Below are positions 4,629-21,213 of a DNA stretch of 21,727 nt, piece after piece. The DNA comes from a virus: positions 1 through 21,727 of IMG/VR virus record IMGVR_UViG_3300045117_000110, one strand, 5' to 3'. Under the pieces are notes generated by a model, which made no database searches, had not been told where the DNA came from, and saw only the letters and a program-made list of their open reading frames with translations. A program made the translations under genes and the position numbers. Positions within the stretch are counted from its first letter, which is position 1. Each line of letters begins with the position of its first letter.

Positions 4629-5609
4629 ATGTCAGTAGAAATTGGACGTCAAGGATATTTAGGATTTGCATTAGAAAGTGTAGCGGGGACGGCGGAGTCT
4701 GCCCCATCAGTGTTCCTACCTTTTACCGAGTGTAGTTTAGAAACTAAGCACGAGAAATTTAGTGATATTTCCGTTCGTGCTTCTAGGGTTAAAGATCACG
4801 ACTCCGTGAGTGGTAAGAAGTGGGGAGAGGGCGACGTGTCCCTATACTTAGATGCTACTAATTCTGGATATTTGATCAAACTAGCTTTCGGTAATGAGTC
4901 TAAAGCCGACTATCAAGCTAGCCCAAACGTTGACAATCACCAATTTTACATTACTACTTCTGGTAACGCGGCTAAGACGGCTACTATCTGGGAATATCAG
5001 GGAAGTGGTCCAACAGTACAACGATATGTTCGGACGGCTGCTAACAACCTAGAAATTGAGGTAGGAAATGAGGGGTTAGCAACGCTAAAAACTAGCTTAA
5101 TGGGTAGCGATTCAACAGGCGTAACTGCTCCAAGTTTAACTACAACTTCGGGGACTATCTTCGCTTGGACTGCAGCTACTGTAAGTTTTGGTGATACTGT
5201 CGAAGCGGCTCGCATAGCGAGCGCAACCAAAGTAACTAACTTTAAATTTACGCTTAATAATAACCTAGAAATGGTTTACGAGTTCAATTCCGCGACCGTT
5301 TCTCAAGTTTTATTGGGTGAGGCGGAAGTAACTGGCTCGTACACGTTATTTTTTGAAAATGACACGGAGCTAAGCGCTTATAAAAATAACACTAAGCGAG
5401 CAATGGTTATGACCTTAACAGGCGCCTCGGTTGGCGCGGCTACGGAGCAGTTAGAGATTTGTATCGATAGGATGTTCTTAGAGGATAAAAGCATAGATAC
5501 TGGCGCTAGTAACTTCTTCGCCATTACTGGTAACTACCGAGTTATTCAAGGAACAAATGGCGGATTTGTGACAGTAAACTTGCGTAATGCTAAGACTAGT
5601 GTGTATTAA
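4629..5609 (+). CDS. Major tail (tube) protein
   Basis: 326 residues with a very strong ribosome site (AAGGAGGTGAAAAC-ATG). The N-terminus has a long loop (GFALESVAGTAESAPSVFLPF), followed by beta-rich sequence (KWGEGDVSLYLDATNSGYLIKLAFG), as in the phage tail tube superfamily. It stacks as rings around the tape measure protein. The strong ribosome site fits a high-copy structural protein. A 10-bp hairpin follows the stop, separating it from the chaperone gene. Confidence 0.8.
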   Translation: MSVEIGRQGYLGFALESVAGTAESAPSVFLPFTECSLETKHEKFSDISVRASRVKDHDSVSGKKWGEGDVSLYLDATNSGYLIKLAFGNESKADYQASPNVDNHQFYITTSGNAAKTATIWEYQGSGPTVQRYVRTAANNLEIEVGNEGLATLKTSLMGSDSTGVTAPSLTTTSGTIFAWTAATVSFGDTVEAARIASATKVTNFKFTLNNNLEMVYEFNSATVSQVLLGEAEVTGSYTLFFENDTELSAYKNNTKRAMVMTLTGASVGAATEQLEICIDRMFLEDKSIDTGASNFFAITGNYRVIQGTNGGFVTVNLRNAKTSVY

Positions 5610-5664: not shown

Positions 5665-6015
5665 ATGGATAATAAAAATATATTTAACTACCGGAAAGAA
5701 GTCTACCCCGAGGATAATGAACTATGGGTAGAACTCTATGACGACCTCTCTATTGGACAATGGGAGAGGATACTAGCAAAGATTGGAGACTTGAAGGACT
5801 CCGCTGATGCTAGGAAAAGCATGGAGGTAGCTTTGGATGTTCTGGCGGGGAGTATTAAAGATTGGAACTTTGCCGACAGTAACGGCGAGAAATTAGTAGT
5901 TAACGAAGATAATATTAAGCGCCTTCCCTCCAAGTTAGCCACTTGGTTGGTGACATTAGCAAACGACTTCTTCGTTAATAGGGATAGTAAAAAAAAAGAA
6001 TCGCCAAGCAGCTAA
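5665..6015 (+). CDS. Tail assembly chaperone, short (G-type) product
   Basis: 116 residues, ending SPSS at a TAA (6013-6015). It lies between the tail tube and tape measure genes, the invariant place of the tail assembly chaperones that hold the tape measure during tail polymerisation. It carries a run of nine A bases just before its end, with a stem-loop 7 bases later, allowing a -1 shift into a 66-codon extension. The start at 5665 has no clear ribosome site and lies 16 bases after a stem-loop. The frameshifted partner makes the assignment firm even though the sequence itself is not distinctive. Confidence 0.85.
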   Translation: MDNKNIFNYRKEVYPEDNELWVELYDDLSIGQWERILAKIGDLKDSADARKSMEVALDVLAGSIKDWNFADSNGEKLVVNEDNIKRLPSKLATWLVTLANDFFVNRDSKKKESPSS

Positions 6016-8415: not shown

Positions 8416-9638
8416 TGACTAAGAAAGAATATGTTTACAAGGTCTTTAATGTCTCCGACACCGTAGTAACCAGCTTAAACACTACCTGGCGAGATGAAGT
8501 TGTTAGCACCCCCATGTTCAAAGCAGTGCTTAATGGTTCCGATAGCGAACTAGTTGTAAGGCTTGCCCGCCCATTTGATGACTTTGGAGAAGACGATGAC
8601 GTGAAACTAAATAACAAAGTGGAGGCGTGGGTTTATGATAAGGAAGCTCCCGCGGGGACGTTACTTTACTCCGGATACATAATTGGATATTCAAATATTG
8701 TGAATGAGGAGAAAGAGTTTGTGGATGTAAGGGTTAGGGGTTACGGCCACTTATTATCAACTGGAATACTAAGAAATGGAAATAGTACTACCATTTCTTA
8801 CTATTCTAAAGACCCGTCCGTTATATTTAGAGACATTGTTAACAAGTTTGTTGATAGGGAGGGGCCATTCTTGGGGTATACGGCAGATAGTGTTGAAACA
8901 ACTGGCACAACCGTTACATACACATTTAATACCAATACCTATCGTGAGGCTCTTGACAAGGTTATTGAGTTAGCTCCCTCCGGATGGTATTGGCAAGTTA
9001 ATCCTAATGGTATTTTATCGTTTAAGGCCAAGACGGTAACAATTAACCATAGTTTTAGAATGGCTACGCACCTATCTAGTGTTTCCCCCGATAAGAACAT
9101 GGAGGACATGGTGAACGAGGTTTACTTTACTGGCGGGGAAACCGCTGGAGAAAACCTATTTATTAAGACTACTAGGCAGTCCTCTATTGACTCTTATGGT
9201 AGGAGAATAAAGAAAATAGTTGACGGAAGAGTAACGGTTGCCGCTACCGCTATCACAATGAGTACTAAGTTACTTGATGAGCGCTCCGCCCCAGAAAAGA
9301 GAGCAATAATATTGGTAGTAGATAGTAATGGCGGTGAAGACTTTGGCTACGATATTGAGTCTGTTAGTGTTGGCGACAACGTGGAGATTTTGGAATTGAC
9401 AGCGGGTGTTCCAGTAGTGTCTAATTGGGATAGCTTTGTGTGGGACACCGATGTGTGGGACTCCACCGTAGAGACAACTATAAACGATGTTTTGCAAATA
9501 ACGTCCCTGTCTTATGCTCCGGAGAGTTTAGAACTAACCACAACTACACGGCTACCAGAAATAAGCAAAAGAATTGAGGATATTAACCGAAACTTTGAAA
9601 GCTCCGTTTTAGTTAATAATCCTTCGGAAGCAAGTTAA
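8415..9638 (+). CDS. Tail-tip / baseplate hub protein (gp37- or Tal-like)
   Basis: 407 residues, beta-rich N-terminal half (NGSDSELVVRLARPFDDFGE; VEAWVYDKEAPAGTLLYSGY) with the pattern of hub proteins that sit at the tail tip, followed by a domain containing YREALDKVIELAPSGWYWQV, typical of the ReqiPepy6 gp37-like tail proteins. The last 40 residues are a helix (RLPEISKRIEDINRNFESS). Order tape measure-Dit-hub is standard. No peptidase or lysozyme motif is apparent, so cell-wall digestion by this protein is not supported. TAATG start overlap with the Dit gene. Confidence 0.72.
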   Translation: MTKKEYVYKVFNVSDTVVTSLNTTWRDEVVSTPMFKAVLNGSDSELVVRLARPFDDFGEDDDVKLNNKVEAWVYDKEAPAGTLLYSGYIIGYSNIVNEEKEFVDVRVRGYGHLLSTGILRNGNSTTISYYSKDPSVIFRDIVNKFVDREGPFLGYTADSVETTGTTVTYTFNTNTYREALDKVIELAPSGWYWQVNPNGILSFKAKTVTINHSFRMATHLSSVSPDKNMEDMVNEVYFTGGETAGENLFIKTTRQSSIDSYGRRIKKIVDGRVTVAATAITMSTKLLDERSAPEKRAIILVVDSNGGEDFGYDIESVSVGDNVEILELTAGVPVVSNWDSFVWDTDVWDSTVETTINDVLQITSLSYAPESLELTTTTRLPEISKRIEDINRNFESSVLVNNPSEAS

Positions 9639-10803: not shown

Positions 10804-11096
10804 GCGTAAACGATGCTATTTATGGAGCGGCGACAACCGGATTCTTCTTTAACGGTTTTATTCATTTACTCTTAGCTGTATCTTATATTCGTGGCTACCT
10901 AAAGAACAAAGGCACCTGGCCGATATTCTGGCTATCAGCGGTTTGGGCCTCCTCGACGGTGATGTTACTTTCTTGCGCTATCTTGTATAGCTTTAGAGTG
11001 TTTAATGCGCCGTTTGAAATAGTAGTGGTTTTGTGCAATACTCTAGTAGCAATTGCTTCACTAGGACTGTTAAGAGTTACAGTTAGCAATTGTTGA
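10800..11096 (+). CDS. Three-segment membrane protein, possible holin
   Basis: 98 residues with three hydrophobic segments: near residues 8-30 (GFFFNGFIHLLLAVSYI), 40-65 (IFWLSAVWASSTVMLLSCAI) and 73-94 (IVVVLCNTLVAIASLGLLRV). It overlaps the previous gene by ATGA and precedes the endolysin gene, so a holin is a reasonable guess. Its last 14 bases overlap the tail of the convergent HNH gene. A second small hydrophobic protein follows the endolysin at 12438, so which one is the holin is unresolved. Confidence 0.6.
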   Translation: MSVNDAIYGAATTGFFFNGFIHLLLAVSYIRGYLKNKGTWPIFWLSAVWASSTVMLLSCAILYSFRVFNAPFEIVVVLCNTLVAIASLGLLRVTVSNC

Positions 11097-11589
11097 AAGT
11101 ATGCGTTTGCTTGGAATGGCCAGTGTGTGGCCGATGAATAACAACGTGTTCTGCTCTGCTGACAACAACAAGGTTTTCAATTCTATTATCGAGGCCGTTT
11201 CCGTTTATGTGGTGTACTATCTCCGTTGGTTTCAGGTATCTACCAAGTTTCTTTTCCATTACAAGTCTATGCTCTGCAACCTTATTGTGTCTAGCGTATG
11301 GATGTGTTGGTTGGTAAATAAAAATGTGCCCATTATGAATAACAAGTCCTGTTTTCCAGCTTGGATGCTTTTCTGGATGTTTGGAAATATATCTAAAATG
11401 GCATTTGCGGGAACAGAAAGAAAGTTTTCCAAGGTTATGGCTTTTGTAGCGGAAAAACTGTTTACCACAGTTAGCACAGTTAAAAACGCCTTTTCTAGAC
11501 ACGTCGTAACAACTACGACCACAAAACCTGGCCTTTTGAGATGGCGGAGCATTAAATTCTATTCCACACAACTCGCACTTATATAACAC
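11083..11589 (-). CDS. Free-standing HNH homing endonuclease with zinc fingers
   Basis: 168 residues on the strand opposite to the surrounding late genes. Two Cys4-type zinc modules lie at the N-terminus (Cys5/8/23/27 and Cys38/41/59/63). Then comes an HNH core of the HNH_3 kind: EHRLVMEKKLGR (His107), VHHINGNGLDNRIENL (His126, His127, Asn129, Asn131) and His148. It cuts DNA and usually spreads itself into related genomes. The GTG start sits just 6 bases after a strong promoter, so the message appears leaderless; no ribosome site is seen. It separates a membrane protein gene from the endolysin and overlaps the former by 14 bases. It may be related to the group I intron 1.8 kb away. Confidence 0.9.
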   Translation of the reverse strand: MLYKCELCGIEFNAPPSQKARFCGRSCYDVSRKGVFNCANCGKQFFRYKSHNLGKLSFCSRKCHFRYISKHPEKHPSWKTGLVIHNGHIFIYQPTHPYARHNKVAEHRLVMEKKLGRYLKPTEIVHHINGNGLDNRIENLVVVSRAEHVVIHRPHTGHSKQTHTFNNC

Positions 11590-12741: not shown

Positions 12742-13828
12742 ATGACAAAGAAAAACGTGCTTGAGGGGTCTTCTCTTCACGCACTGTTAGCAGAAGTGAG
12801 AGCTCGTGGCTACTTCTCTTTCAAGCAACCGTTGAGGCAAGGGTCGAAGATTGTCGTTGATACCTCTCGGTGGGGTGGCGATAGTTTTTCCTTCGCCGTT
12901 GTTAGCGACACCCACTGCGGGTCGCTGTACTTTCAACGGACAGCTTTGGAAGAGTTTTACTCTGTGGCAGGGGACAGGGGTATTCAGCTAATTCTCCACG
13001 CTGGAGACCTCTGTGACGGCACAAGCTCCATGCACGCCGGAATGGAGTTTGAACTAGCGGTCCACGGGGCAGACCAAATGGTTGCGTATGCCAAAGACAT
13101 CTACCCCTACCGTCGGGGAATTGTCACGAAGGTTATCAGTGGTAATCACGACGCCGCATTTTGGAAAGAGTCTGGAACAAACATCGTCCAACGTATCTGT
13201 GACCAACGTCGCGATATGGAGTACTTGGGCGACACCCTTGCTTTCGTCCAAATTGGTGCTATCCGAATTGCGCTAATGCACGGAAGTGGGAATGTGGCTT
13301 ATGCTCGAAGCTATCGGTTACAGAAAATTATCGAGCAACTAGCTCCTGAGAATAAGCCGAACTTTCTGTTCCTCGGACATAAAATTAAATGTGTCCTTAC
13401 CTAGTAATAGGTAATAAAAAACCTTACTATATCGGTGGAACTCCTTAAAGGACAATACCGAGGCAACCTGCGAAAGCAGAGAGCCCGTAACGACTAAATG
13501 TAAGGCTCTGTACTTTGACAGAAGAAGCTACAGATGAAGTTATAGTCTGGTCTGTACGGTAACGTATAGAGGTGGCAGAAATGACCACCCGCCCTTGTGG
13601 TTATAAAGTAACAGTACGTACCACGTGCCGGCAACAATTCCAGGATACCGCAATGTCGAGGGGATCCAAATGCCGTGCTTTCAGGCCCAGACTCCTTTCC
13701 TGGCCAGCAAGGGGTTGTTTCCGTTTATCGCCGGGATAATTGTAACCGTTACTCCTGACGAGAACGGGTTAGCGTCCGTCAATTACGAATGGGTGCCGTT
13801 TTACAAAGTTCGTAAACGAGACATTTGA
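12742..13828 (+). CDS. Metallophosphoesterase, split by a group I intron
   Basis: Two exons, 12742-13380 and 13619-13828, join to give 282 residues. Calcineurin-type phosphoesterase motifs are in order: SDTH (Asp56, His58), HAGD (Asp89), GNHD (Asn135, His136), LMHG (His180) and GHYH (Gly212-His215). The last motif exists only after splicing: exon 1 ends after His213 and exon 2 resumes at Tyr214-His215. Unspliced reading stops 8 codons into the intron. It hydrolyses phosphodiester or phosphomonoester bonds with two metals; the target is unknown. The ribosome site GGGAGGTAGGG precedes the ATG. Base and codon use (more Leu CTG/CTC, Ile ATC, Arg CGT) differs from the structural genes, suggesting a different origin. 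Confidence 0.9.
13381..13618 (+). ncRNA. Group I self-splicing intron (238 nt, no internal ORF)
   Basis: Exon 1 ends in GGACAT and the guide GTGTCC (13391-13396) pairs with it, giving the conserved U-G wobble at the 5' splice site. The intron ends in G (13618). Expected helices are all present. P2 is 13397-13403 with 13408-13414, GUAA loop. P3 is CCTTAC 13422-13427 with GTAAGG 13500-13505. P4-like is TCGGT/ACCGA. P5-like is TCCT/AGGA. P6 is CTGC-GAAA-GCAG. P7 is GACTA 13492-13496 with TAGTC 13543-13547. P8-like is TCTG/CAGA. P9 helices are capped by GTAA and by GGTGG/CCACC. No endonuclease gene lies inside. Confidence 0.93.
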
Positions 13829-18509: not shown

Positions 18510-19055
18510 CTAGAAAGGAATTTCGGTACTTTTAACGTCTTCCTTTCCTTCTATGTGGTTAGCGTCTTCGGTAGAGACGTCGCTTGGAAAGTCAATATCC
18601 TTCTTCGGCATACAACTATTCCTCTCGCCGTCGCTTAGAGACTTTAAGTTATTAGAAAGTTCGGGCGATAAAACGCTAGTAATGTTACTATTAGTCCTAC
18701 CGTCGACAGTTGTTTGTTTGACAACTATTTGAACTTTAGCCTTAATTAGTGAATTAATGTCAAAGTCTCCAATTATCGGTTCTTGAATTATGGCATTAAC
18801 GAACTCGTAGAGCTTACTAGCCTGTCCGCCGTTGGCTCCCGAGTAGTAGGTATCGTTTACAAAGTGAACAATTTTCTTTGCTCTAGCCCTTTCGTCAAGA
18901 ATACCCATATAGACGTAGTATTTGTTTTTTAGGCCGTATTTAGTTTGCAAACCTCGCTTGTATTGAATATCAACTATTTCGGCAGTGTATACGCCTTGCG
19001 GCAATGCCTCAAATTTAGGTTCGTCTCTTAAAATTGCGTGTTCACGTTCAACCAT
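18510..19055 (-). CDS. SSB-like single-stranded DNA binding protein
   Basis: 181 residues from the ATG at 19053-19055 behind TAAAGGAGGTGAACACA. The N-terminal two-thirds (residues about 10-120) are beta-rich (LPQGVYTAEIVDIQYKRGLQ; NKYYVYMGILDER), as in OB-fold or DUF669-type phage ssDNA-binding proteins. The C-terminal third is polar and acidic and ends STEIPF, close to the DDIPF-type tip with which SSBs recruit replication and repair proteins. It likely protects single-stranded DNA in phage replication or recombination. The assignment rests on the tip motif, acidic tail and size. Confidence 0.65.
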   Translation of the reverse strand: MVEREHAILRDEPKFEALPQGVYTAEIVDIQYKRGLQTKYGLKNKYYVYMGILDERARAKKIVHFVNDTYYSGANGGQASKLYEFVNAIIQEPIIGDFDINSLIKAKVQIVVKQTTVDGRTNSNITSVLSPELSNNLKSLSDGERNSCMPKKDIDFPSDVSTEDANHIEGKEDVKSTEIPF

Positions 19056-19064
19056 TGTGTTCAC

Positions 19065-19125
19065 CTCCTTTAACTACTAAACTTAGCCCCACATCGTAGC
19101 TTCCAACCTTAGTTAGAAGCTAGGT
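19065..19125 (-). promoter_or_regulatory. Hairpin leader of the SSB-like gene
   Basis: Read on the - strand, TAGCTTC (19116-19122) pairs with GAAGCTA (19097-19103) around a 12-base loop. The downstream part (TAAGTTTAGTAGTTAAAGG) is nearly identical to the sequence after RNA element B, although the main element is not repeated here. A shared translation-leader cassette is likely. Confidence 0.5.
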
Positions 19126-19281
19126 CTAGGGTTGAATCTTATTATGTATTCCTGCTCCCGCTACTACTCCTTTCACGGCTCTTGCAAAAGCTCTTGCTAC
19201 GGCTCTGGCTCCAACCCCCGCTCCTGCTCCTACTCCAGCTAAAGCTCCTGCTCCAACCCCCGCCCCCGCTCGTACTCCCAA
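19126..19281 (-). CDS. Gly/Ala-rich small protein in a second frame
   Basis: 51 codons from a TTG at 19279-19281, preceded by TGAGGTGGG about 7 bases upstream. It overlaps the Ser/Arg-rich frame almost completely. The peptide is Gly, Ala and Val with a few Arg (GVGAGALAGVGAGAGVGARA, then VARAFARAVKGVVAGAG), compatible with a membrane-active helix. Third codon positions are mostly A/T as in neighbouring genes, which favours this frame. It may instead be the continuation of the ATG-led frame by a frameshift at the G-runs. Confidence 0.4.
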   Translation of the reverse strand: MGVRAGAGVGAGALAGVGAGAGVGARAVARAFARAVKGVVAGAGIHNKIQP

Positions 19282-19321
19282 TCGGCACCCACCTCAAAGT
19301 ATTTATATTAGCTCCTATCAT
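19142..19321 (-). CDS. Ser/Arg-rich small protein, ATG-led frame
   Basis: 59 residues from the ATG at 19319-19321, behind a strong AAAGGAGGTGGAAATA leader. The first part (MIGANINTLRWVPIGSTSGG) looks like a normal protein start, but after a Gly run the rest is a repeat of Ser, Arg and Trp (WSRSRSGGWSQSRSKS), unlike any neighbour. Because the overlapping frame has more natural codon use, the first 20 codons may belong to that frame through a +1 shift near the two G-runs (positions about 19257-19268), or a base is wrong in the sequence. Confidence 0.45.
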   Translation of the reverse strand: MIGANINTLRWVPIGSTSGGGGWSRSFSWSRSRSGGWSQSRSKSFCKSRERSSSGSRNT

Positions 19322-19335
19322 TATTTCCACCTCCT

Positions 19336-19491
19336 TTACCACCTATAACCTTTGTATTCTTGGTTATAATGACTAAGGTAGTTGTTTTCTTCTCGGCGCC
19401 AACTAGCTTCTTTATCTCGCAAGTCTTCCTCCCACGAGTCGTCCGTAGAAACATTGACTTTCTTAGGTTTAACTTTGGTTATTTTCTTCAT
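19336..19491 (-). CDS. Small charged protein of unknown function
   Basis: 51 residues (ATG at 19489-19491, TAA at 19336-19338). Lys-rich start (MKKITKVKPKKVNVS), then an acidic segment (TDDSWEEDLRDKEASW) and an aromatic end (NYLSHYNQEYKGYRW). The stop TAA forms the start of the next gene's ribosome site (TAAAGGAGG), so the two are tightly linked. It starts 4 bases after the previous stop. No family recognised. Confidence 0.6.
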   Translation of the reverse strand: MKKITKVKPKKVNVSTDDSWEEDLRDKEASWRREENNYLSHYNQEYKGYRW

Positions 19492-19495
19492 ATAG

Positions 19496-19687
19496 TTAAA
19501 ATAATAGTCCTCTTTCGTTTAACTTTCCAAAATTAGACATAGGGGCCGTTAGTCGTTTGTCGGCTTCGTGGTACTTGGTGATAGCGAAGTCTACGCACCG
19601 TACCCAACATTGATAATGGCTTATCTTACCTTCGGCGTAGTCTCGGCAAAAGCGTTTGACTTTTTTGTATCTAATTAAGCGTGTCAT
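19496..19687 (-). CDS. Small basic protein directly behind the tmRNA-like RNA
   Basis: 63 residues from the ATG at 19685-19687 (MTRLIRYKKVKRFCRDYAEG). A longer in-frame start would read through the RNA element, so it is rejected. The N-terminus is strongly basic; a helical middle (YQCWVRCVDFAITKYHEADK) follows. There is no ribosome site: the ATG lies 6 bases after the 3' end of the tRNA-like domain. If that domain is cut out by RNA-processing enzymes, the message would begin almost at the start codon. Function unknown. Confidence 0.55.
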   Translation of the reverse strand: MTRLIRYKKVKRFCRDYAEGKISHYQCWVRCVDFAITKYHEADKRLTAPMSNFGKLNERGLLF

Positions 19688-19693
19688 AGTTGA

Positions 19694-19749
19694 TGGAGGT
19701 GGCGAGAATCGGACTCGCGTCCTAAGGTTAGTCAAATCCGTTCACCCCC
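19694..19749 (-). ncRNA. tmRNA acceptor-domain-like RNA (no mRNA part)
   Basis: Read on the - strand, GGGGGTG (19743-19749) pairs with CACCTCC at the 3' end (19695-19701), 7 bp including one G-U, followed by an A at 19694. After the first strand comes AACGGATTTGAC, close to the tmRNA signature CGGATTCGAC. The 3' half has GGAC, a 5-bp T-arm (GCGAG/CTCGC) and loop TCCGATT, close to tmRNA's TTCGATT. Only about eight bases (TAACCTTA) stand where tmRNA has its whole message part. No CCA is encoded (TCA follows). A promoter lies about 85 bases upstream. Confidence 0.65.
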
Positions 19750-19826
19750 AAGTTGCTAGATAAGCTCTAGCGGGCTTGTCCCGTTAGGTAGCTGTAAAAG
19801 GACTAAGCCTAAGCTAAACCTAACTA
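19750..19826 (-). ncRNA. Structured 5' part of the transcript carrying the tmRNA-like domain
   Basis: Between the promoter and the tRNA-like domain, the - strand can fold into GTTAGGT/ACCTAAC (enclosing about 28 bases), CGGG/CCCG with a 5-base loop and GCTAG/CTAGC with a 7-base loop. The last is the size of an anticodon arm but lacks U at loop position 2. No open frame with a ribosome site is present. Confidence 0.45.
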
Positions 19827-19832
19827 GGATAT

Positions 19833-19861
19833 ATCATAACATATTGGGGATAGTTTGTCAA
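19833..19861 (-). promoter_or_regulatory. Promoter for the tmRNA-like RNA and the genes behind it
   Basis: Read on the - strand: TTGACA (19856-19861), 17-base spacer, TATGAT (19833-19838), with TG one base before the -10 box. Transcription should start near 19826. Its -10 region shares the 14-base sequence TATGTTATGATATA with the promoter at 18181-18209. Confidence 0.78.
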
Positions 19862-19868
19862 TACCCCT

Positions 19869-20393
19869 TTATCTTTGGAGTAACATGGCTTCTCGTAGTG
19901 AATCCATGAGAACTTTTACAGGAATGGGGATGTTGGAGGTGGTATACCCGTTGTTAATAGCTAACTTCCTACCAAATCTCAATAGCCATTCGGCCCAGTT
20001 TTCAACCCACGTCTTTTGTAGCAGCAAGAAGGGAAGGAAGTAAACTTTGTGGCTGGGCATGACAGCATAAGCAATATAGTCGGTATATTTATCTCTTCCT
20101 AACCAGCCAACTTTCTTAGTTTCAAAGTTAGAATATTCTTCTAGGAGAATGTCGCCATAATCTACCCGCCGCTTCTTTTCGTCAACATAAACAATATTGT
20201 CGTTTTCAAATATTAGCTCCTTGTCTATTCCTAGTCGTTGTTTAGCCAGTTCCGTTACCGTTCTTATCTCTTTTAAATGAGGAAACGCCTTAAAGTAAGC
20301 GTCGTTTATACTGCGGTCAAAATTTCCTTCTAAAGAATAAACAAGGTCAACATTAAAGTCGTTTTTTCTAGTAACTATCAAGTTGGTCTCCAT
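19869..20393 (-). CDS. Probable PD-(D/E)xK nuclease partner of the methyltransferase
   Basis: 174 residues, start ATG 20391-20393, overlapping the end of the methyltransferase gene by 26 bases. The centre has a beta-type segment and an acidic pattern (VDYGDILLEEYSNFETKKVG): Asp81, then Glu91-Thr-Lys93, compatible with a PD-(D/E)xK active site. The helical end (KVYFLPFLLLQKTWVENWAE) resembles uncharacterised phage proteins. The overlap with an adenine methyltransferase suggests a restriction-like or DNA-repair pair. The nuclease call is by motif only; it may be a non-catalytic partner. Confidence 0.5.
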   Translation of the reverse strand: METNLIVTRKNDFNVDLVYSLEGNFDRSINDAYFKAFPHLKEIRTVTELAKQRLGIDKELIFENDNIVYVDEKKRRVDYGDILLEEYSNFETKKVGWLGRDKYTDYIAYAVMPSHKVYFLPFLLLQKTWVENWAEWLLRFGRKLAINNGYTTSNIPIPVKVLMDSLREAMLLQR

Positions 20394-21213
20394 AAACTGT
20401 CCAAAGAGGACTAAACTGGTGTCGAGAAAAGAGTTCTAGGTATTTTCTATTCGGGAACCACTTTTCTAGCCATTCGTAAATGATTTGTGGCTTTCGGGAA
20501 TGTTTTGTCTTCTTTTCGGAGTAGACAGAGGGAATTCGGAGAGATTCCTCCGGCGGACTAAATGGGCCTTTAATGGCAACTAATAATAGCTCGTGTTGCC
20601 CTCTAAACCAATAACCCATTCCTAAAGACTGCTTATCCCATACCATGTTGGACTTATATTCAAATCCCCAGGCTTTTATAACTTCTAGGGCTTCTTGGAG
20701 CTTGGGGGCGGTGGTCCATAAATATAAAACAGCATTTTCTGCAGCTGGTACCTTCATTTCGCAAATATCTTGCAGACTTAGTGTTTGATATTTGTTCTCT
20801 ATGTCGTCGGCGGAGTCTTTGCTAAATTCATATCGCCATGGCGGATCAGCATAGATTACGTCGTATTCTCCTTTAGGTAGTTCTAGCGTGATTTTGTTTT
20901 CGGGGGCGGCGGGGAGGTATTTGGTAATTAATTTGTTCCAAGTTATATTCTTTCCTTCTGGTACTTTGTCTAGTTCGGGGTACTTATCGTAGGCTTGCAG
21001 TGCGTACCACAGTGTCCGCTCAGAAGTGTTTAAGGTTACTGCAAGGTCCTGCAGTAACTTTGTGCTGAAGTTACTATCCTCTCTTAGTCTCTTTCCTAGG
21101 CTCCAATAGCCCTCTACTAGCGCCCACCGAGAAGTAAAAACCGCCTCCGTAATTATGTCTTTACAGTCTTCTATTAAGTTTTGGTACCAGTCTTGAGTAA
21201 TGAGTTCATTCAT
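20368..21213 (-). CDS. MT-A70 family DNA adenine methyltransferase
   Basis: 281 residues. Residues 1-95 are helical with a helix-turn-helix-like part (LLQDLAVTLNTSERTLWYAL), as in the DUF1016-type N-terminus often joined to this family. The catalytic part has DVIYADPPWRYEF (DPPW at 123-126), the N6-adenine methyltransferase motif, followed by VPAAENAVLYLWTTAPKLQE and HELLLVAIKGPFSP, typical of MT-A70. It methylates adenine in DNA, either to protect the phage from host restriction or to work with the overlapping nuclease-like gene. The start at 21211-21213 has no clear ribosome site; a complex inverted repeat lies just upstream. Confidence 0.88.
   Translation of the reverse strand: MNELITQDWYQNLIEDCKDIITEAVFTSRWALVEGYWSLGKRLREDSNFSTKLLQDLAVTLNTSERTLWYALQAYDKYPELDKVPEGKNITWNKLITKYLPAAPENKITLELPKGEYDVIYADPPWRYEFSKDSADDIENKYQTLSLQDICEMKVPAAENAVLYLWTTAPKLQEALEVIKAWGFEYKSNMVWDKQSLGMGYWFRGQHELLLVAIKGPFSPPEESLRIPSVYSEKKTKHSRKPQIIYEWLEKWFPNRKYLELFSRHQFSPLWTVYGDQLDSY

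Follow-up and report, generated by a model that had tools for sequence, protein, structure and literature searches.

The window analyzed here is the whole 21,727-nt stretch of the viral record IMGVR_UViG_3300045117_000110, and the coordinates of the element refer to it. This 21.7-kb record carries head, tail, tape measure, and endolysin genes as well as a group I intron, and the element considered below, on the minus strand, is encoded by a tailed phage. At 19749-19691 (59 bases), there is a complete tRNA-like domain (TLD) of transfer-messenger RNA (tmRNA) with no message and no pseudoknots. Standard tmRNAs are approximately 350 nt long, and the message part makes up about 300 bases. The assignment as a TLD-only tmRNA draws on a match to the Rfam model RF00023, a held-out family model, and a pairing table.

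Anatomy of the RNA element

The 5′ half of the acceptor stem, GGGGGTG (19749-19743), in which G3 pairs with U70, is followed by the linker AAC (19742-19740) and by GGATTTGAC (19739-19731), a near match to the tmRNA D-loop box GGNTTCGAC. The message site is taken up by TAACCTTA (19730-19723), so that the GAC and GGAC boxes are 8 bases apart. The GGAC box (19722-19719), the T-arm (GCGAG at 19718-19714, loop TCCGATT at 19713-19707, and CTCGC at 19706-19702), and the 3′ half of the acceptor stem, CACCTCC (19701-19695), lead to A73 (19694), to TCA at the position of the CCA (19693-19691), and then to ACT. What replaces the message and pseudoknots can be read as a remnant of the P2 helix (19731-19722), in which C-T-A faces T-A-G (pairs C-G, T-A, and A-T) across the loop ACCT. 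This remnant has 3 bp and a 4-base loop, while most relatives have 5-7 bp. All seven acceptor pairs, including G3.U70, and all five T-stem pairs are present. The window RNA keeps the acceptor stem with G3.U70, which together with A73 marks alanine identity, the D-loop box without a D stem, and the T-arm, whereas the tag frame with its resume codon and stop is gone, as are the pseudoknots.

The RF00023 match to the TLD runs from model position 1 to 374 but skips the middle, at 55.6 bits (gathering threshold 47) and an E-value of 1.4e-19. A covariance model built from other viruses only also found it (55.8 bits, E = 2e-10), in a search where recognizable tRNAs reached at most about 32 bits. ARAGORN called neither a tRNA nor a tmRNA in the window, and it misses the whole class of compact TLDs. 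A preliminary description of this DNA had proposed a tmRNA acceptor domain with both of its ends and without a message part, to be checked with the Rfam tmRNA models and ARAGORN. The proposal holds, with a score above the gathering threshold in the first check and nothing called in the second. An identity as tRNA-Ala was rejected, as the sequence has no D stem and no anticodon arm and ARAGORN found none. The 5′ end comes ahead of the 3′ end, which rules out a tmRNA of circularly permuted or two-piece form.

Promoter, leader, and adjacent genes

The same description had placed a promoter of the RNA's own upstream, with a start about 77 bases away. Indeed, a consensus match to a sigma-70-type promoter lies at 19861-19833 on the minus strand, with TTGACA (19861-19856), a 17-nt spacer, and a TG-extended TATGAT (19838-19833). 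It agrees with 11 of 12 consensus bases and is the best such site within 1.4 kb. Judged from the distance to the -10 box, transcription would start near 19826, 77 nt before G1, and the resulting 5′ leader (19826-19750, minus strand) would putatively be removed by RNase P. A UAGUC and short frame in the leader (LLQLPNGTSPLELI, then a stop) were considered as a tag and rejected, since they lie outside the mature RNA and do not resemble one.

A small open reading frame (ORF) of 63 aa without a family match (19687-19496, minus strand) begins just downstream of the TLD, as had been described. Its ATG at 19687 is 6 bases past A73 and 3 past the TCA, and no Shine-Dalgarno sequence was seen ahead of it. 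Further small ORFs continue downstream on the same strand. No site resembling a terminator turned up in 19000-20400, so the RNA would be released by cleavage of a longer transcript. One small ORF in this direction (19342-19142, minus strand) encodes Ser-Arg-rich repeats over a low-complexity C/T-rich stretch.

A family of message-free tmRNAs in viruses

Viral contigs were scanned with a pattern that asked for a tmRNA D-loop box and a T-arm 2-32 bases apart and did not require G3.U70; an earlier, stricter pattern had given no matches. The scan returned 55 stretches, 47 of them with 7/7 acceptor and 5/5 T-stem pairs. These 47 loci comprise 28 distinct sequences, all with G3.U70. The remaining eight have at most five acceptor pairs, and there were no intermediates. 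Pattern matches discarded for lack of acceptor pairing were L018, L022, L035, L051, L061, and L064, as well as L028 and L029 (5/7). Matches in the mycobacteriophages Milly and Mufasa were also set aside, as they lie directly before an integrase and are probably tRNA-like stretches of att sites. When tested directly, 15 of 16 compact loci exceeded the RF00023 threshold (L063 scored 46.3 bits against 47).

Within the family, changes at acceptor positions 4-7 and in the T-stem are compensated, and the P2 stem at the message site, mostly of 5-7 pairs, varies freely in sequence while its pairing is kept. For 11 sequences, across the acceptor, T-stem, and P2, both sides had changed in 42 cells, compared with 12.7 in shuffles, and standard pairs filled 94.9% of cells, compared with 47-57% when the partners were slid. 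G3.U70 was present in 25/25 compared sequences and A73 was kept as well, as would be expected if charging matters.

Spacing between the GAC and GGAC boxes is 18-32 bases in relatives, and the window has the fewest, 8, followed by true members with 18 and 19. As read from its sequence, the window RNA is the smallest member of the family, at 56 nt before the CCA. Members of 94-112 nt with longer loops occur as well. L142 and L147 have TLDs with 60-base loops and are thereby intermediate between compact TLDs and complete tmRNAs.

Distribution and genomic context

When 257 Gb of bacterial and archaeal genomes were scanned in a comparable way, 66 stretches were returned; of 65 matching loci, only two passed the same pairing test (L131 and L135). 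Each of these two assemblies has, in addition, smpB and an ordinary full-length ssrA with a tag, from which the compact copy differs in the acceptor stem and P2. The compact form is thus largely confined to viruses. Among cultured phages, Streptomyces phages BRock, LuckySocke, GiJojo, and pSt2308 have a compact TLD in a tRNA cluster, either unannotated or under a hypothetical protein, and Streptomyces phage Alone3 probably carries one too. The first four genomes, deposited as complete (112-115 kb), have no full-length tmRNA and no SmpB gene. At L154 (1499-1741), the start of GiJojo gp44, annotated as a hypothetical protein, overlaps the TLD, and GiJojo gp44 is probably a miscall. None of the 30 viral records searched encodes SmpB, and therefore host SmpB must be used.

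The neighbors of the TLD vary and include the terminase small subunit, ribonucleotide reductase, replication genes, tRNA clusters, and integrases; none is common to the whole family. In the L012 group, the gene for the terminase small subunit is separated from the following one by the TLD, which is 12 nt upstream of this following gene. Integrase genes are found near the TLD in L055 and L062, with an apparent one in L041. Two different compact TLDs, at 5394-5470 and 8940-9015 and 3.5 kb apart, occur in L162 (IMGVR_UViG_3300038314_000673), and the TLD-bearing viral contig L031 has a Pistol ribozyme match (5883-5946, plus strand; 59.4 bits).

A second record, G001, is identical to the window over 10.9 kb and adds terminase and portal genes leftwards. 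In close viral relatives of the window, the element is missing or the region is not reached. For the terminase, relatives show approximately 31% identity to Thermus phage proteins, and no phage match was obtained for the major head protein. The group I intron (13371-13569, plus strand; Rfam 66.7 bits), inside which the ORF at 12742-13404 ends, appears to interrupt a gene similar to metallophosphoesterases/DNA repair exonucleases. An HNH endonuclease ORF (Pfam HNH_3; 11083-11589, minus strand) runs opposite to the structural genes.

Discussion

We consider it probable that the message-free tmRNA is an alanine-chargeable decoy that would occupy host SmpB and dampen trans-translation, a reading built on sequence features and on analogy with a known phage RNA. 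The RNA would be transcribed from the promoter at 19861-19833, its TLD would be freed by RNase P and 3′ trimming, and the CCA would be added by the host. Host alanyl-tRNA synthetase (AlaRS) would then charge the TLD with alanine, and host SmpB (and EF-Tu) would bind it. In this form it would compete with full-length host tmRNA for SmpB, possibly also for empty A sites, and the consequence would be less tagging of proteins from broken mRNAs during infection. The phage may gain by shielding its own proteins from tagging or by freeing ribosomes for other fates. AlaRS and SmpB use parts of the acceptor, D-loop, and T-arm. A decoy fits the anatomy because the parts for AlaRS and SmpB are kept, the parts for tagging are gone, and the phages bring no SmpB.

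A decoy for SmpB had been offered in the preliminary description as something new. It is the best-supported function, but it is not without precedent. Mycobacterium phage DS6A has a TLD-only tmRNA (Mao et al. 2009, as relayed in PMC4131195 and PMC11915505), and a DS6A-like RNA, whether alanine-chargeable or not, was reported to strongly inhibit tmRNA in E. coli (Mao et al. 2009, cited in PMC4131195). Titration of SmpB is the suggested cause, perhaps, in the accounts of PMC4131195 and PMC11915505. Among 97,179 curated tmRNAs, nine of standard form lack the coding part, and DS6A is the named phage case (PMC11915505). By description, the DS6A and window RNAs are alike in having an intact TLD in standard order, without a coding part, in a phage; the window RNA differs in its very small size and in a P2 helix reduced to 3 bp.

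Other known tmRNAs resemble the window RNA in part. With standard bacterial tmRNA (RF00023) it shares the G3.U70 acceptor stem, the D-loop box, and the T-arm, but it has no pseudoknots, resume codon, or tag, and it is 59 nt rather than about 350 nt long. Message loss is also seen in tmRNAs without a coding sequence (CDS) from Mallomonadaceae plastids (approximately 65 bp) and from mitochondria, although these are organellar and the mitochondrial ones are mostly circularly permuted, while the window keeps the standard order (PMC11915505). The full-length or two-piece tmRNAs of Streptomyces phages and the OM43 phage Melnitz are phage-encoded, as in the window, but they retain the tag frame and could serve as tmRNAs (PMC9004378).

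The window itself provides several points that weigh against a working decoy at this locus. Unconstrained folding gave an alternative structure at -19.3 kcal/mol, 1.3 lower than the canonical fold (-18.0 kcal/mol), and the P2 stem is far shorter than in every relative. Moreover, this form is known from one metagenomic record, as the near-identical record G001 stops short of the element. With its short P2 and alternative fold, the window TLD could be a decayed copy; it may represent an extreme minimal form or the start of decay.

Instead of a decoy, the RNA could be a stripped-down rescue factor, in which the alanine-charged TLD with host SmpB takes over the peptide and frees the stalled ribosome without adding a tag. 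Such tagless rescue has been suggested for mitochondrial tmRNAs without a tag frame, and these CDS-less RNAs co-occur with SmpB (PMC11915505). The conservation of G3.U70 and A73 in every compared member would suit a rescue factor, though inhibition is also reported for a version that cannot be charged. However, ending translation without a resume codon and stop has no known route, and the sole experiment on such an RNA, as relayed in PMC4131195 and PMC11915505, showed inhibition. We regard a rescue factor as unlikely.

Still less probable, in our view, is a processing element, at which tRNA enzymes would cut to yield a near-leaderless downstream mRNA and separate the genes of an operon. The window ATG 3-6 bases past the 3′ end and the gene 12 nt downstream of the TLD in the L012 group would suit such a role, which the preliminary description had also raised. 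As a feature of the family, this idea does not survive, as relatives lie in tRNA clusters, without a close downstream gene, or at variable distances from the next one. Nor would a processing site demand a tmRNA D-loop box or an invariant G3.U70.

To a functionless remnant, either what is left of a host ssrA after loss of its middle or an ssrA integration-site copy, we assign a similarly low probability. The gene ssrA is a common integrase target, integrases lie near the TLD in the few members named above, and the window P2 is nearly gone. However, an integration-site copy of ssrA would carry the 3′ end only, whereas here the two halves of the TLD both occur and pair perfectly, with compensatory changes among relatives. 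There is no integrase among the scanned proteins of the window and the overlapping record G001, and many members adjoin terminase, ribonucleotide reductase, or tRNA genes. The preliminary description had named such a copy, or a full message part elsewhere in the phage, as grounds for abandoning its view. So far, neither has appeared, with no other tmRNA match or message part in the window record or in G001, which together represent an incomplete genome. A decoy or donor for a partner other than SmpB, such as AlaRS, RNase P, or a tRNA-attacking defense enzyme, is very improbable: the acceptor identity elements are conserved, but all members have the D-loop box, which goes beyond the needs of AlaRS (a weak point, since the search pattern required the box).

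Message-free tmRNAs as a kind were known from DS6A; what is new is that they form a diverse family spread widely among phages, and that the window holds its smallest member. In the literature searched, we found no account of a broad family of this type in phages, and our limited pattern scan adds at least 28 distinct viral message-free tmRNAs, some of them from Streptomyces phages in culture. Nearly all bacteria carry out trans-translation. Message-free tmRNAs may be a common phage tool, gained or evolved by many unrelated tailed phages to shut down trans-translation, with the window as the smallest natural version, in which P2 is almost dispensable; we put this forward tentatively and rate it slightly below an even chance. 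The family would turn the curiosity of DS6A into a testable claim, namely that phages commonly suppress ribosome rescue, and it supplies natural candidate ligands of SmpB.
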